Shown: positions 6,532-63,050 of the stretch, in pieces
Layout of the letters: each line of letters starts with the position of its first letter
Numbering within the stretch: the stretch's first letter is position 1
Assembly (NCBI RefSeq): GCF_001997295.1
Contig: NZ_CP019605.1
Coordinates: 2,046,001-2,110,000, forward strand
Length of the DNA: 64,000 bases
Direction of reading: 5' to 3'
From: Tessaracoccus flavus
Lineage (GTDB): Bacteria; Actinomycetota; Actinomycetes; Propionibacteriales; Propionibacteriaceae
The notes under the pieces: generated by a model
The model's database searches: none
What the model saw: only the letters and a program-made list of their open reading frames with translations
Told to the model about the DNA's origin: nothing
Position numbers and translations under genes: made by a program

Positions 6532-6969
6532 ATGCCACGCAGACGAGATCGACATGGGCGCGGGATCCGAGGCCCGCTCGCCGCCCCCAATCCGCTTCTC
6601 GGGCGCCCCGTGCCCCTCTTCCGTCCGGGTCGGGTCGACTTCTTCAACGACTGCGTGACCTCGGCCATGGCCGATATCGCCTCGATCGCTCCGGGTGCCC
6701 TCAACGGCATCGTCGTCGGCGTGGAGGACGTGCCGCAGCTCAACCTGACGTGGTCGGGCGACCGCGTGCCTCTGTCGGCCGCGCTGGAACCGAGCCGCGG
6801 CCGTCGGGCGCAGATCGTGATCTATCAGCGTCCGCTGGAACACCGGGCGTCCTCCCGAGGCGAACTGCGCCGTCTCGTGCACCGCACCATCGTGGAGCAG
6901 CTGAGCACGCTGACCGGCCGCAGCATCGACGAGTTGGTGGGCGAGGACCCGGACTGGGACGACTTCTGA
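6532..6969 (+). CDS. Metallopeptidase-family (zincin-like) protein lacking HExxH
   Basis: 145-aa protein of the family annotated as metallopeptidase and found next to DUF3499 (Rv3259 type). The region FFNDCVTSAMADIASIAP and VVGVEDVPQLN matches the family fold, followed by AQIVIYQRPLEHRA. Where true members have HExxH, this protein reads VHRTIVEQLSTLTGRSIDEL: the Glu and second His are replaced, so proteolysis is unlikely. As I recall, the mycobacterial orthologue also lacks the motif. The acidic C-terminus ends EDPDWDDF. It is probably leaderless (TATTGT, 6 nt upstream). It is convergent with the DUF5719 gene across the repeat array. Confidence 0.82.
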   Translation: MPRRRDRHGRGIRGPLAAPNPLLGRPVPLFRPGRVDFFNDCVTSAMADIASIAPGALNGIVVGVEDVPQLNLTWSGDRVPLSAALEPSRGRRAQIVIYQRPLEHRASSRGELRRLVHRTIVEQLSTLTGRSIDELVGEDPDWDDF

Positions 6970-7030
6970 TCCGGTGCCGATCGGTGGTCGAGGGTCGAGA
7001 CTGAGTCCCCGGCACGCCCAAGGCCGAGGA

Positions 7031-7393
7031 TTCGCCAACCGTCCGACCCGAACGCCAACACGGATCACGAAACGCCAACCAGCGGGGCTGAACGCCAATG
7101 CAGAGGCGCTAACGCCAACGGTTGGCTGGAAACGCCAACGGGGAGGCGCGAACGCCAACGGTTGGCTGGAACGCCAATCGGCAGCCCGGAACGCCGACGA
7201 GACTCAGCGATGCCCGTGATATCTCAGGGGCGTCCCTGAGGCTCGCGGGCGCGGCGGGATATCGGTTGGCGTTGTGCGCGGTCGGTTGGCGTTTCCTCCT
7301 GCGCGTTGGCGTTCCCCTTTGCGCGTTGGCGTTCCCCTTTGCGCGTTGGCGTTTCCTTCTGCGCGTTGGCGTTTCCTTCTGCGCGTTGGCGTT
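7031..7393. repeat. Two-armed 20-bp-period repeat array with dyad symmetry
   Basis: The left arm has AACGCCAA(C/T) starting at 7051, 7071, 7091, 7111, 7131, 7151 and 7170, plus weak copies at 7031 and 7190. The right arm has the reverse complement GTTGGCGTT starting at 7265, 7285, 7305, 7325, 7345, 7365 and 7385, an exact 20-bp step. Between them CTCAGGG-GCGT-CCCTGAG (7223-7240) forms a hairpin. Hairpin and both arms share the same axis at 7231.5. The 11-bp spacers vary on the left and are more uniform on the right. It fills the 451-bp gap between two convergent genes; the rest of the gap (6970-7030, 7394-7420) shows nothing clear. Confidence 0.95.
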
Positions 7394-7420
7394 TCCGCCT
7401 GCGTGAGGGGAGGCGGGTGC

Positions 7421-8659
7421 TCAGCGCAGCGTCGGGTCGAGGCGCGCAGGCACCCCTCGGACCGCCGCATCCACCGAGTCCGCGGCCGGCACCACGACCG
7501 TGCCCGCCTCCGTGGCCGAGACGGCGGCTGCCACGACAGGGCTGTCGGCCGAGAGGTCGACCTCCAGCTGACCGCCCTCCGGCAGCGGCACCGCGACGGT
7601 GAGCCCCGCGTCAACGGTGAGCTGCTGATCCGCGCCACCCACGGAGACGTCGACGGTGGCCTCGCCGTCGCCGGGATTGCTGACCACGAGGGCACTGCCG
7701 CCGGGCGCGTTGAGGCTGAGTTCGCTCGACGCGACCCCGCCGGTCAGAGTGGCCGGAGACCCGGCGCCGACCCCCGCCACGACGGACACCCCGACGGCCT
7801 GGTCCGCAGCGATCTGCAGCGCCGCCGCTTCCCCGGCGAGCGCGTCGCCGAGATCGATCGCCATCGTCGACCTGGGTGCAACGGAGATCCCCGTGGCCGA
7901 CGCCGGCTCGAACGAGGCGCTGGCGCCGAGGGCTTCGACCGACACCTCGACTCTGTTCTCGTGCGGATTACTCACCAGGAGCTGCACCGCCGTCGCCCCG
8001 GCGGGAATGCCACCCACGACGTGCTCGGTGGACGGATCGGACGGTGGGGTGAACCGGGTCGGCCGACCTTCGACGGCCGCGCCGATCAGAGCCACGCGAC
8101 CCTGACTGGCGCGGAAGGCGACCCCGACAGGGCCGTCGGGAGCGAGGACGGACAGCGCGACCCGTCGCGTGCTCCCCGGCGCCAGCGCGATGCCTCGGGC
8201 CCCGACCGCGACCACCTCGCCGTCGGCGCCGAGGAGGGTGAGATCCACCGTCGCTTCGTTGCCGTCCGCGTTGGCCAGGATCAGCTCGGTTGAGGCCGGG
8301 TCAGCCACCACGACCATCCCCGAGGTGACGGCCGGTTGGCAGGGCGCGTAGGAGCGCTGCTCCTGCTCCACGAGCACACCCGCGGCCAGGCGCCGCTCGG
8401 CGCGGAGCACGACCGGTTCGTCGATGGTCAGCTCGCCGCCCTCAGCTGATTCCGCGTTTCCCGACAGGCCCCGGACTTCCACGTTTGCGACGTCGCGAAC
8501 CAGCACCCTGCCGGCGACGAGGCACACCACCCGCGACGTCTGTGGCAGGTCGACGGCCACGGGCGGGGTCTGCCGGGCCGGTGACAGCAGCGCGAGCAGG
8601 GCGGCCACCGCAACGACGGCGAGCAGGGCGGCGAGGGACAGCGCGGTTCGGCGGATCAT
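7421..8659 (-). CDS. DUF5719 family membrane-anchored protein
   Basis: 412-aa protein with an N-terminal hydrophobic segment (RTALSLAALLAVVAVAALLA) acting as signal anchor; the rest is predicted extracytoplasmic, rich in Ala, Val, Gly and Thr and made of repeated beta-strand-like stretches such as VSNPHENRVEVSVEALG and VSNPGDGEATVDVSVGG. Cysteines are few. Function unknown; the family accompanies the large glycosyltransferase in actinobacteria, which suggests a role in envelope polysaccharide assembly. Its ATG overlaps the glycosyltransferase stop by one base (TGATG), so translation is probably coupled. It ends 28 bp from the repeat array. Confidence 0.8.
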   Translation of the reverse strand: MIRRTALSLAALLAVVAVAALLALLSPARQTPPVAVDLPQTSRVVCLVAGRVLVRDVANVEVRGLSGNAESAEGGELTIDEPVVLRAERRLAAGVLVEQEQRSYAPCQPAVTSGMVVVADPASTELILANADGNEATVDLTLLGADGEVVAVGARGIALAPGSTRRVALSVLAPDGPVGVAFRASQGRVALIGAAVEGRPTRFTPPSDPSTEHVVGGIPAGATAVQLLVSNPHENRVEVSVEALGASASFEPASATGISVAPRSTMAIDLGDALAGEAAALQIAADQAVGVSVVAGVGAGSPATLTGGVASSELSLNAPGGSALVVSNPGDGEATVDVSVGGADQQLTVDAGLTVAVPLPEGGQLEVDLSADSPVVAAAVSATEAGTVVVPAADSVDAAVRGVPARLDPTLR

Positions 8660-59977: not shown

Positions 59978-60640
59978 TCAGATGATCTGGAACCCGAACT
60001 TCAGGACCTCGATGAAGATAACCAGGGCGAGCCAGCCGATCAGCACGATGGTGAACCAGCCACCCTTGACGAAGGCCACGGCCTTCTCCTGTGCCGAGGG
60101 GGACAGGAAGAGGTTGTTCTCGAGGATGTTCCACTGCGTCATGGACGAGAAGACGAACGTCGTCGACAGCGTCACCGTCAGGCACCACGGGCAGAGCGCG
60201 CCGATGACGAAGGAGGACTGGAAGAGCAGCCAGTAGGCGAAGATGACGCCCAGCAGATAGCACACGTTCGCGGTGAACATGAACCAGCGGGGGAACCGCA
60301 CCATGACGAGCGACGCCACGGCGATGGTCATCACGACGGGCTCAGAGACCAGACCGAGGAACGCGTTGGGGAAGCCGAAGACGTTCGCCTGCCACGTGGT
60401 GCCAACCTTCGCGCAGTCGAGGATCGCGTTGATGCTGCAGGCGAGGTCCGCGCCGGGGTCGGCCGCCAGCTTGATCGCGTCGATCGACAGCACCGCGGAC
60501 GCGACGAGGCTGACGATCGCGAAGAGCAGCATCTCGCCGAACAGGATGGTGCGGGTGCGGCGGCTCGGCCGTGGCCGCCAGTCCTCGACGCCTCCGGGCT
60601 CCTGCGTCTCGATGTCTTCGGCTGTCGCGCTGTTGGGCAT
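59978..60640 (-). CDS. Vitamin K epoxide reductase (VKOR) family protein
   Basis: 220-aa membrane thiol-oxidising protein that in actinobacteria reoxidises DsbA-like proteins and passes electrons to menaquinone. Helix 1 is [20 protein letters not shown]; the periplasmic loop [18 protein letters not shown] carries the shuttle Cys pair; the redox site is [19 protein letters not shown] (CPWC). A C-terminal helix ([20 protein letters not shown]) completes about five membrane segments. No fused DsbA domain and none nearby, so its partner is encoded elsewhere. ATG 60640 is 6 nt from TACGAT (minus sense, 60647-60652); the divergent PrsW gene has the same arrangement. Confidence 0.92.
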
Positions 60641-60704
60641 GCGCACATCGTAGCCACACCGGCGTAACTGCCAGGGATGACCCACGTCGCACTACCTTTG
60701 ACGG

Positions 60705-61898
60705 GTGACCGATGCACCACCCACCCGCCCCCACCCGACCCTGGACGCGGCCGTACAGCACAAGCGTCAGGCGCTCGTGCTCCCGCTGCTGTTCATCGCA
60801 GTGGGAGCGATCGGCACCGCCCTCGGCATGTTGGTGGTGCTGCACCGCCCCCTGCCCAACACGCTCGCGGCCGTGGTTCCGTTCACGGTCATCCTCCTGA
60901 TCGGCGTGTGGTTCCTCAACTGGCTCGACCGGTGGGAACCTGAGCCTCCCCGGTTCGCGATAGGGGCCTTCCTCTGGGGAGCGGGGGTCTCGGCCCTGAT
61001 CAGCGGGGTCGTGAACAGCCTCTACCTGGGGATCACGCAGGACCTGTCCGCGACGGCGATGTATTCCGCGCCCCTCATCGAGGAGTCCACCAAGGCGCTG
61101 TTCCTGTACGTGGTGCTGCTCAGCACACGGCGCGGCCGCGCGGAGTTCAACAGCCTGACCGACGCCCTCGTGTACGGCGGGCTCGTGGGCCTGGGATTCG
61201 CGTGGATCGAGCACATCGGCTATGCGCTGAGCGTGGAGACCCTGGAGGAGTCCACCCCCATCATCATCGGCCGGATCGTGCTCACGTCCTATCTTCACCC
61301 GGTGCTGACCATGATCGTCGCCGTCGGCATCTGGGCGGGTGTGACGAGCCGGGGTGCCGGCCGGCGGCTACGCCCGTTCATGGCCTGGCTCGTCGCTGTG
61401 GGCCTGCATTTCCTCCACAACGGGTCCTACGAGCTGTTCGGTCCCTGGGGCATCGCCATCGCCGCGGTCGCCGAGTTCGTCGCCTTCGTCACGCTCATCG
61501 TCCTGGGTGTCCGCTCCCGTCGCGCGGAACGCGCCGAGATCGTCAGGCAGCTGCCGGCGATGGTCCACTTCGGCTGGATCACCCCGCTGGAGGCGGGATG
61601 GCTGGCGGATGCCCCGGCGCGGAAGCGGATGCTGGGCAGCGCCGGCGCCCAGAGGCGGACCCTGCACGATTTCATCCAGAACACCACCGAGCTGGCGCTC
61701 CTGCGGGGGCGCCTCGACGCCATGCCTCCCGGCTCCCACCCCATCGAACTTCTTCAGCTGCACGGGGAGCTCGCAGACCTGGTGGCCCACCAGCGGCCTG
61801 TCGTCCAGGGAATCCTGGCCCGCAGCAACGGGTGGCACACGCTCGAGGCTCGCCCCGGGCCCAGCTGGGGCGCTCCCACCGGCGACGGCGGGCCCTGA
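60705..61898 (+). CDS. PrsW family intramembrane metalloprotease
   Basis: 397-aa polytopic membrane protease of the PrsW/M82 type, relatives of which cut membrane anti-sigma factors. Motifs: MYSAPLIEESTKALFLYVVL (EExxK), GGLVGLGFAWIEHIGYAL (WIEH-like Glu/His), SYLHPVLTMIVAVGIWAGV (His) and GLHFLHNGSYELFGP (His), the four groups expected to hold the metal. About eight helices lie in residues 25-265. A cytosolic tail of about 130 residues follows (MVHFGWITPLEAGWLADAPA). GTG 60705 is 6 nt after TACCTT (60693-60698). No anti-sigma gene is nearby, so its target is unknown. Confidence 0.9.
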   Translation: MTDAPPTRPHPTLDAAVQHKRQALVLPLLFIAVGAIGTALGMLVVLHRPLPNTLAAVVPFTVILLIGVWFLNWLDRWEPEPPRFAIGAFLWGAGVSALISGVVNSLYLGITQDLSATAMYSAPLIEESTKALFLYVVLLSTRRGRAEFNSLTDALVYGGLVGLGFAWIEHIGYALSVETLEESTPIIIGRIVLTSYLHPVLTMIVAVGIWAGVTSRGAGRRLRPFMAWLVAVGLHFLHNGSYELFGPWGIAIAAVAEFVAFVTLIVLGVRSRRAERAEIVRQLPAMVHFGWITPLEAGWLADAPARKRMLGSAGAQRRTLHDFIQNTTELALLRGRLDAMPPGSHPIELLQLHGELADLVAHQRPVVQGILARSNGWHTLEARPGPSWGAPTGDGGP

Positions 61899-61917
61899 GC
61901 CCCCTCGGCCTGGGGGC
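61899..61917. terminator. Short hairpin between PrsW and DUF3017 genes
   Basis: GCCCCC (61899-61904), a 7-nt loop and GGGGGC (61912-61917) lie in the 23-bp gap between convergent stop codons. It is a minimal structure and only a plausible terminator. Confidence 0.45.
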
Positions 61918-61921
61918 AGGA

Positions 61922-62206
61922 TCAGCGGGAGGGCGGCACCACGAGGGAGACCACCGCGATGGCGACGCCGAACGTTGCCATCACAGCGACGTCGATCCAT
62001 CGGCGGCGCACCACGAGGAGGCCCGCCAGGCGGGGCGGGAGCACGGCCCGCAGGCCGGCCCCAAGGGCGAGCGCGCCGGCGATCATGAGCGCGGCGCGGC
62101 GCCAGTGGCCGAATCCTGCGTACCCGACTCCCACGAGCACTGCCGCGAGGACGAGGAGTAGAGGCCAGGGGTTGTCCGGGTAGGAGTCCGCCGGCTTATC
62201 CGGCAT
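61922..62206 (-). CDS. DUF3017 domain-containing membrane protein
   Basis: 94-aa protein of the actinobacterial DUF3017 family, usually encoded directly after folD as here. Three hydrophobic segments are visible: [40 protein letters not shown] and [20 protein letters not shown], with basic loops between (GHWRRA, VVRRRW). Function unknown. The start overlaps the folD 3' end by 11 nt, so the two are co-translated; conservation of the pair suggests co-expression more than a common pathway. Confidence 0.9.
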
Positions 62207-63050
62207 GAAGCTGCTCCGCGCGGTCGACCACGTTGCTGAGCAGCATCGCCCGCGTCATGGGGCCGACTCCGCCGGGGTTGGGGGTCACCCAGCCTGCCTT
62301 GTCCCAGACGTCGGCCGCGAGGTCCCCCACGGTTTTGCCCTCGACACGGCTCACCCCGACGTCGATGAGGGCGGCGCCCTCACGGATCATCTCCGCGTTG
62401 ATCATGCCGGGGACCCCCGCTGCGGCCACCACCACGTCGGCACGGCGCGTGTGGGCGGCGAGGTCGCGGGTGCCGGTGTGGCACAGGGTCACCGTGGCGT
62501 TCTCGCTGCGGCGGGTCAGGATGAGACCGAGCGGACGCCCGACGGTGATGCCGCGGCCCACGACGACCACCTCCGCTCCGCTGATCGGAACATCGTGTCG
62601 GCGCAGCAGCTCGACGATCCCGCGCGGGGTGCACGGCAGGGTGGCCGGTTCCCCCAGGACCAGCCGACCCAGGTTGATCGGATGCAGTCCGTCGGCGTCC
62701 TTGTCGGGATCGATCAGGCCGAGCACCCAGTTCTCATCGAGGTGGCGCGGGACCGGCAGCTGCACGATGTAGCCCGTGCACGCTGGATCGGAGTTGAGTG
62801 CCTCGATCTCGGCGCGCACCTGGTCTGCGGTCGCGTCAGCCGGTAGTTCGACCCGGATCGAGGAGATTCCCACCTCGTCGCAGTCCCGGTGCTTCATCCG
62901 CACGTAGTTCTGGCTTGCTGGATCCGCGCCCACGAGGACGGTGGCCAGCCCGGGCACGACGCCCCGGTCACGGAGGGCGGCGACACGGGCGCGCAGTTCC
63001 GTCTTGATGGCGGCAGCGGTCGCCTTACCGTCGAGTCTCTGGGCAGTCAC
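62196..63050 (-). CDS. folD: Bifunctional methylenetetrahydrofolate dehydrogenase/cyclohydrolase
   Basis: 284-aa enzyme interconverting 5,10-methylene-THF and 10-formyl-THF. The catalytic-domain motifs are [20 protein letters not shown] (catalytic Tyr-x3-Lys as YVRMK), [20 protein letters not shown] (QLP) and [20 protein letters not shown] (DKDVDG-type loop). The NADP domain has [20 protein letters not shown] and [20 protein letters not shown], then [20 protein letters not shown] 63050 has a GGAGGG ribosome site 5 nt upstream. It lies 9 bp after purH and supplies the 10-formyl-THF that PurH consumes. Confidence 0.97.

Follow-up and report, generated by a model that had tools for sequence, protein, structure and literature searches.

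Arrays of ~20-bp direct repeats that serve cooperative protein binding are familiar from plasmid iterons and transposon ends. REP/BIME elements, as described in PMC2817692, are palindromic repeats scattered in dozens of extragenic copies; they are reported to bind proteins and have been proposed to help organise the chromosome and to act in termination. The sites of Noc (NBS) and SlmA (SBS), in the account given by PMC4726725, number tens of palindromic sites per chromosome and are under-represented in Ter. A DNA-bound protein can also stall RNA polymerase and thereby cause termination, LacI and yeast factors being the examples named in a review (PMC10310618), which treats as open whether Rho acts on polymerase stalled at such a roadblock.

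The element studied here lies in the window, i.e. the whole 64-kb stretch of DNA that was analysed, and is one of about 70 dyad elements in the host genome (G000, 3.22 Mb, one contig). Like REP/BIME, these elements occur in dozens of dispersed extragenic copies (71 lie between called genes in G000), but their arms are direct repeats kept strictly to a 20-bp register, and the only inversion is the one at the axis, whereas REPs alternate. RAYT/REP membership was rejected: RAYT (Y1_Tnp, PF01797) was found in 0/39 genomes of the genus, the host being one of them (control positive in 5/14), and no GTAG/GTGG head was seen by eye beside the palindrome in the consensus of 59 aligned centres. Like Noc and SlmA sites, they are tens of palindromic elements depleted near the terminus (KS p = 0.004, 2e-5 and 0.011 in three genomes); unlike those single palindromes, they are arrays of 2–19 sites placed at gene ends. 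A Noc-type second ParB was rejected, each of the 39 genomes having one place with an HTH_ParB match. Iterons and transposon ends differ in that here about 70 copies are dispersed over the chromosome with no dominant adjoining gene family. By analogy with roadblock terminators, the array may act as a bound-protein block to polymerase; the main text of the review (PMC10310618) nowhere uses the word ‘array’. Compared with intrinsic terminators, the elements possess a GC hairpin but nearly all lack the U tract. There were no Rfam matches in the 64-kb window at the gathering threshold, and literature searches, which are weak evidence, returned no described element with a phased dyad-array layout. 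The broad kind is that of dispersed extragenic repeats, and the phased dyad-array with selected cores fits no family tested.

In these dispersed repeats, geometry can be told apart cleanly from selection and from genomic placement: the core is under selection while spacers and centre vary, both the dyad and the 19–20 bp register persist, and two congeners (G009 and G014) provide natural occupied/empty pairs. Whether interspersed repeats act as nucleoprotein barriers or as chromosome organisers is therefore a directly testable question here. A binding protein, if found, would make this a new sequence-specific system of chromosome binding among Actinobacteria, for which few such organisers are known.

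The array in the window and its family in the host genome

The left arm (7051..7178) comprises seven AACGCCAA(C/T) cores, which read as GTTGGCGTT-type sites on the minus strand and start at 7051, 7071, 7091, 7111, 7131, 7151 and 7170, in the 20-bp family register with a single 19-bp step. Five are exact AACGCCAAC cores (7051, 7071, 7111, 7131 and 7151), and those at 7091 and 7170 end in T (AACGCCAAT). The right arm (7265..7393, plus strand) consists of seven exact GTTGGCGTT cores starting at 7265, 7285, 7305, 7325, 7345, 7365 and 7385, all steps being exactly 20 bp. The grid of 9-bp sites with one 19-bp step, as proposed in an earlier note on this DNA, is borne out by these starts, and its ‘seven good left sites’ hold if cores with one mismatch are counted. 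Its ‘two weak left sites’ can also be located, one being the decayed outermost site at 7031..7039 (minus strand; TTCGCCAAC, two mismatches) and the other the one-mismatch site AACGCCGAC at 7190, but the latter belongs to the central stem, of which it is the start. The array does lie between convergent genes: a Zincin_1-like metallopeptidase gene (PF06262; 6532..6969, plus strand) stops 81 bp short of 7051, where the first exact core starts, and the stop codon end of a DUF5719 gene (PF18986; 7421..8659, minus strand) lies 27 bp past the last core.

The symmetry axis had previously been placed at 7231.5, together with a small hairpin (7223..7240, 7-bp stem) thought to share it. This placement has to be replaced by 7221.5, the axis of a central imperfect palindrome (7192..7251) which corresponds to the family centre (approximately CGCCGACGAGACTCAGCGACGCCCGCGATAT.TCGCGGGCGTCGCTGAGTCTCGTCGGCG), because 59 aligned family members place most cores at 43.5 + 20k bp (43.5, 63.5, 83.5 and so on) from the axis on both sides. 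Complementary pairs number 23/30 about 7221.5 versus 12/30 about 7231.5, and 74/180 versus 70/180; the hairpin is thus off the family axis. A false axis 10 bp away is possible since the array has a period of 20 bp.

Genome-wide, the pattern GTTGGCGTT N10-12 GTTGGCGTT occurs 115 times on the plus and 113 times on the minus strand of G000, and chance is excluded because these 228 exact core pairs compare with 0 and 0 in the reversed-pattern control. The stretches around all 115 + 113 pairs cover 1,076,939 bases of G000, and all pairs were recovered there. Clustering of sites with at most one mismatch, at least three sites being required, gave 74 clusters, of which 69 contain both site types. In 68 of these 69, all left-type AACGCCAAC sites precede all right-type GTTGGCGTT sites, the exception (cluster 2819820) having a single weak site out of order. 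The crossing step between the two types is 75, 95 or 115 (20n + 15) in 65/69 clusters, with 53, 65, 82 and 117 seen once each. The accepted centre spacings were chosen after these steps had been inspected; 66/74 clusters pass and 8/74 were dropped, and the centre alignment retained 59 elements after 7/66 had been left out for a weak palindrome. The common plan is AACGCCAAC units, a palindromic centre and GTTGGCGTT units, all in one 20-bp register, and the centre is an imperfect palindrome of ~28 bp per arm in the G000 alignment. With a census seeded on exact core pairs, G000 has 70 elements with at least one exact pair, averaging 4.3 sites per arm, and further CGCCAAC pairs occur outside the stretches so covered. 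Copies in G000 tend to be built from one A-type half and one B-type half, which may come in either order (partly by eye), and a second subfamily was recognised by eye. Separately, a second repeat family, with words such as CAAGCTCA and CCCTGAGC at 22-bp steps, was seen at ~16 places in 433 kb of G000 (2.79–3.22 Mb, L092–L113).

Conservation, turnover and dialects

Across 453 in-register units of G000, core columns are 85–100% identical and spacers are weakly conserved, adjacent units differing by 6.4% in the core and by 50.7% in the spacer. The spacer difference is 0.51 between neighbours versus 0.63 between different elements, a pattern that fits arrays growing as units are duplicated, with the spacers drifting afterwards. 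Orthologous elements of G009 and G014 have flanks that are mostly 91–98% identical. Cores show 5/399 substitutions there, spacers 72/611 and the 60-bp flanks 174/1153, counted in 12 of the 13 occupied pairs; a core was accepted if exact in one of the two genomes, a rule that may bias the count slightly towards conservation. Cores are thus ~9-fold more conserved than spacers (p = 1.6e-11), as the earlier description of conserved 9-bp cores with variable spacers had it, and, changing far less than both spacers and flanks, they are under purifying selection.

The turnover of sites is large. When 29 elements of G009 were compared with the corresponding G014 stretches, 13 sites were occupied, 10 had no element and 6 gave no clear result; between occupied orthologues, unit number changes in whole steps of 19–38 bp. 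As seen by eye, G014 keeps an apparent element edge at three of seven displayed sites (G009 2477639, 2724739 and 1429289), remnants pointing to probable loss by deletion, and no clean target-site duplication was seen at any of the seven. Positions mostly differ between G000 and G009/G014, one being shared with both flanks (29 + 16 elements versus 71); for the G014 count, 3/18 pattern places with no exact centre were dropped and one other element was added. A stretch of G009 (2650733–2653060, L190) carries three elements in 2.4 kb, the last of which corresponds by both flanks to the G000 position 2549775, beside genes that resemble hspR and dnaJ (named by eye). A shared mobile gene beside the elements was also considered and rejected. 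A DUF559-like gene (by eye) beside G000 2549775 has no other match among 926 genes called in 1.08 Mb.

Among 38 congeners, the exact 9-bp pair hardly occurs (one each in two genomes), whereas the shorter CGCCAAC at 19–20 bp is present in sister species, so that absence from close relatives, raised in the earlier note, applies to the full core pair and not to its shorter form; nor does CGCCAAC drift there as spacers do. Such pairs number 371 in G000, 80 in G009, 40 in G014, 33 in G025 and 7 each in G012, G033 and G034, with 0–1 in the controls for these seven genomes, and the remaining 32 congeners have 0–3. The six congeners share the plan and CGCCAAC, with different spacers and centres. Elements of G009 and G014 are compact, mostly with two or three sites per arm, 19/20-bp steps and a centre of 25. 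In G000 the centre spacing, measured from R7 start to F7 start, is 93; G012 and most elements of G025 have this value too, with different spacers, G025 also showing 74 and 54; spacings are 53 and 72 in G034, and 43 and 34 in G033. Draft genomes may undercount elements because three contigs, from G025 and G012, break off within or next to one.

Beyond these species, other genera of the family are at background (0–3 matches versus 0–4 in the control, 198 genomes of 29 genera). A search for the three-site 9-bp pattern outside the family, in contigs that possibly exclude the host and its near kin, returned four loci, all of one orientation, and nine viral stretches show 10-bp steps or a single orientation within the array. 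In array-poor relatives, no convincing dyad array of another core was found in G029 (220 kb; at 85% for the neighbouring gene, the nearest relative by that gene), G010 (180 kb) and G022 (120 kb), in a scan of limited power whose top words occurred at 3–6 places, compared with 13 places for the core in 220 kb of G000 and 4 in 140 kb of G009.

Two further observations concern single genomes. The G025 draft seems to hold two dialects, listed here in order: CGCCAACG-type spacers (L244–L248, L250) versus CGCCAACC..CGAAGG-type spacers with a different centre (L208, L209, L243). A stretch of at least 4,056 bp is common to G000 and the more distant congener G037 at 98.5% identity (L233:4192-8247, L088:1-4056); of its genes, one looks GH32-like and one glycosyltransferase-like (both named by eye). 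The identity stops inside an array element just before its central palindrome, which suggests a putative transfer breakpoint there.

Transcript folding and genomic placement

It had been suggested that the array, as RNA, would fold into a ladder of helices. The window region can indeed do so, with an MFE of -220 kcal/mol (z -7.6) on the plus and -206 kcal/mol (z -8.3) on the minus strand, and the central 60-nt hairpin averages -42 kcal/mol over 59 elements. The data do not support the idea that the arms are kept as such a ladder, whether in RNA or as a cruciform. Overall, pairing between mirrored spacers does not exceed that of shuffled ones, either in G000 (4.125/11 versus 4.086; 152 pairs, 58 elements) or in G009 and G014 together (8.72/12 versus 8.61). 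Nor is there an excess of double changes in orthologues (3 observed versus 3.75 expected in nine G009/G014 pairs, 4/13 occupied pairs having been left out of this compensatory count). One-sided changes in these nine pairs went from Watson-Crick to mismatch 11 times and in reverse 8 times. RNA-ladder arms were rejected on these three covariation tests, with exceptions at centre positions 5, 11, 14 and 17, which covary as complementary pairs in G000 (z 3–5.5), and, in G009/G014, at positions 18 (z 2.7) and 21 (z 4.5) of the spacer; 5/36 elements of G009/G014 have fully complementary mirrored spacers. Other axis positions are anti-complementary (25, 36 and 37 in G000; 39 and 44 in G009/G014). Template switching can perfect palindromes and could also yield covariation. 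Because mirrored spacers overall do not covary, the arms look like protein-binding sites and not like a maintained RNA ladder. Core conservation and the rigid register support the other suggestion of the earlier note, that the array presents phased DNA sites on one face of the helix, probably for cooperative binding.

A U tract follows the centre in 2/59 elements on the plus and 0/59 on the minus strand, and there is no terminator-like site in the window between 6900 and 7500. Hairpins between stop codon and element at gene ends with an element are, if anything, stronger than those at other gene ends (-20.2 versus -17.5 kcal/mol; n = 42 and 252; p = 0.03); the element thus does not replace the terminator, since such gene ends keep their own hairpins. 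Insertion into a pre-existing terminator hairpin was rejected, as an element's own flanks pair no better than they do with the flanks of other elements.

Gene context was assessed with a simple codon-usage gene caller trained on G000 and applied also to G009 and G014, three of the 74 G000 clusters being left out (767102, 2576543 and 2692822). The remaining 71 elements lie in 34 convergent, 32 tandem and 5 divergent gaps, versus 53, 176 and 105 among element-free gaps of at least 100 bp, which corresponds to convergent enrichment (OR 4.9, p = 3e-8) and divergent depletion (p = 7e-6) under Fisher tests that, like the KS tests here, assume independent elements. Divergent depletion is also found in G009 plus G014 (p = 0.03); convergent enrichment is non-significant in G009 (p = 0.13) and G014 (p = 0.73) taken singly. 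In tandem pairs, the element is closer to the 3' end of the upstream gene in 28/32 cases in G000 (p = 2e-5) and in 23/24 in G009 and G014 combined, two genomes with many sites in common. Of the 71 G000 elements, 66 adjoin one or more gene 3' ends, and a few elements overlap a called gene end. Elements in G009 tandem gaps with unequal arms turn the longer arm, with its extra 20-bp unit, towards the upstream gene 3' end in 10/13 cases, a possible functional polarity.

RNA that approaches G009/G014 elements from either side has a C content of 0.47–0.48 and a G content of 0.25–0.30; read towards the element from either side, the flank ahead of it is rich in C and the one beyond it rich in G, promoter sides included. 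G000 approaches are without this C-richness (0.36/0.33), like element-free gene ends. Rho-dependent terminators have C-rich, G-poor RNA upstream of the end. The C-rich/G-rich flanks, sometimes made of short GACGGGG-like repeats, accompany the compact element and are absent in G000.

Elements are also biased towards the origin, as marked by dnaA (2.946 Mb in G000, 31 kb in G009 and 0.3 kb in G014). In G000, 48/70 elements lie in the origin half (octiles 15, 12, 9, 12, 8, 8, 4 and 2; KS p = 0.004), with a mean position of 3.007 Mb; the corresponding fractions are 27/29 in G009 (p = 2e-5) and 11/16 in G014 (p = 0.011), although two G009 elements lie near the terminus (1.43 Mb).

Candidate explanations

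Our preferred reading, to which we give a probability of roughly 40%, is that these are dispersed arrays of DNA sites in part of one genus that form putative nucleoprotein barriers at gene ends. A putative sequence-specific protein would recognise (G)TTGGCG(TT), the 7–9 bp core, and bind cooperatively along direct repeats spaced by two turns of the helix, and mirroring about the palindromic centre would make the nucleoprotein stack look alike from left and right. Sitting just behind stop codons, in many cases where two genes converge, the array could block traffic in both directions, as a roadblock at which RNA polymerase from either side stalls, and so aid termination or suppress antisense read-through. 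The rigid register, the selected cores, the centre spacing of G000 that recurs in G012 and G025, the missing overall covariation of spacers, the gene-end bias and the C-rich approaches in G009/G014 count for this reading. Against it stand the non-significant convergent enrichment in G009 and G014 singly, the G000 approaches without C-richness, the C-rich approaches on promoter sides in G009/G014, the hairpins that gene ends keep beside an element and the few or no such pairs in most congeners; the two covarying spacer positions and the fully complementary elements of G009/G014 are more than a pure site model would need. Origin bias is not accounted for by a simple gene-end barrier, and conserved cores could also serve a mobile element's own protein.

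A non-autonomous mobile or selfish repeat (REP-/MITE-like), tolerated at gene 3' ends and with cores needed by a mobilising protein acting in trans, is rather doubtful. The asymmetric A/B half-types with at least two subfamilies in G000 (partly by eye), the largely different positions in G000 and G009/G014 and the existence of sites with no element would suit such a repeat, and REPs likewise avoid promoter-side gaps. On the other side, the 39 genomes of the genus have no RAYT, three of the seven displayed sites look like deletion with no clean target-site duplication, the 141 flanking genes have no dominant family (7 paralogue pairs), the window element is without a plasmid or phage match, and orthologous copies keep selected cores at fixed places, unlike a dead insertion. 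It is unlikely that the same putative protein-bound arrays have a chromosome-scale job (organisation, segregation or division control), as Noc and SlmA sites do, gene ends being tolerated places. The origin bias in all three genomes, with sites thinning near the terminus, argues for it, as does a copy number of 16–70, of the order given for Noc (about 70) and SlmA (24–52) sites in PMC4726725. G009 and G014, however, share 13 sites and are not independent, G009 has its two elements close to the terminus, the 39 genomes have one ParB-family match each and no Noc-like paralogue was found in them, patchy presence among congeners would be odd for a core cell-cycle system, and site turnover is large (10/23 resolved G009 sites empty in G014).

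A function in RNA, by which transcripts of either strand fold the central hairpin (and the ladder) as a bidirectional terminator or a 3'-end stabiliser, appears improbable. It would draw on the strong window fold and centre hairpin, the covarying centre and spacer positions and the gene-end placement; against it, U tracts are nearly absent, no terminator-like site lies in the window's 6900–7500 region, the arms lack overall covariation and compensatory excess and have anti-complementary axis positions, and selection acts on the core sequence. That the array is a collapsed-repeat assembly artefact, as the earlier note had considered, or a meaningless tandem-repeat expansion, is highly improbable: although unit number changes in whole steps between species and three draft contigs end in or beside elements, the single-contig genomes G000, G009 and G014 all carry elements whose spacers vary between copies, the cores are far more conserved than spacers, and the reversed-pattern control is 0.

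Extending the gene-end barrier to the whole chromosome, one may tentatively, and with less confidence, picture an undescribed system in part of one actinobacterial genus, in which a putative single conserved protein acts at 16–70 origin-biased, mirror-symmetric, 20-bp-phased arrays, insulating transcription-unit ends and patterning the chromosome, with rapidly diverging dialects built on a near-invariant CGCCAAC.

Among the genes that flank elements in G000, three that end at three elements (60271–62715, 479388–480308 and 837536–838678) share a domain of ~147 aa at 47–60% identity and are the closest among the paralogue pairs.
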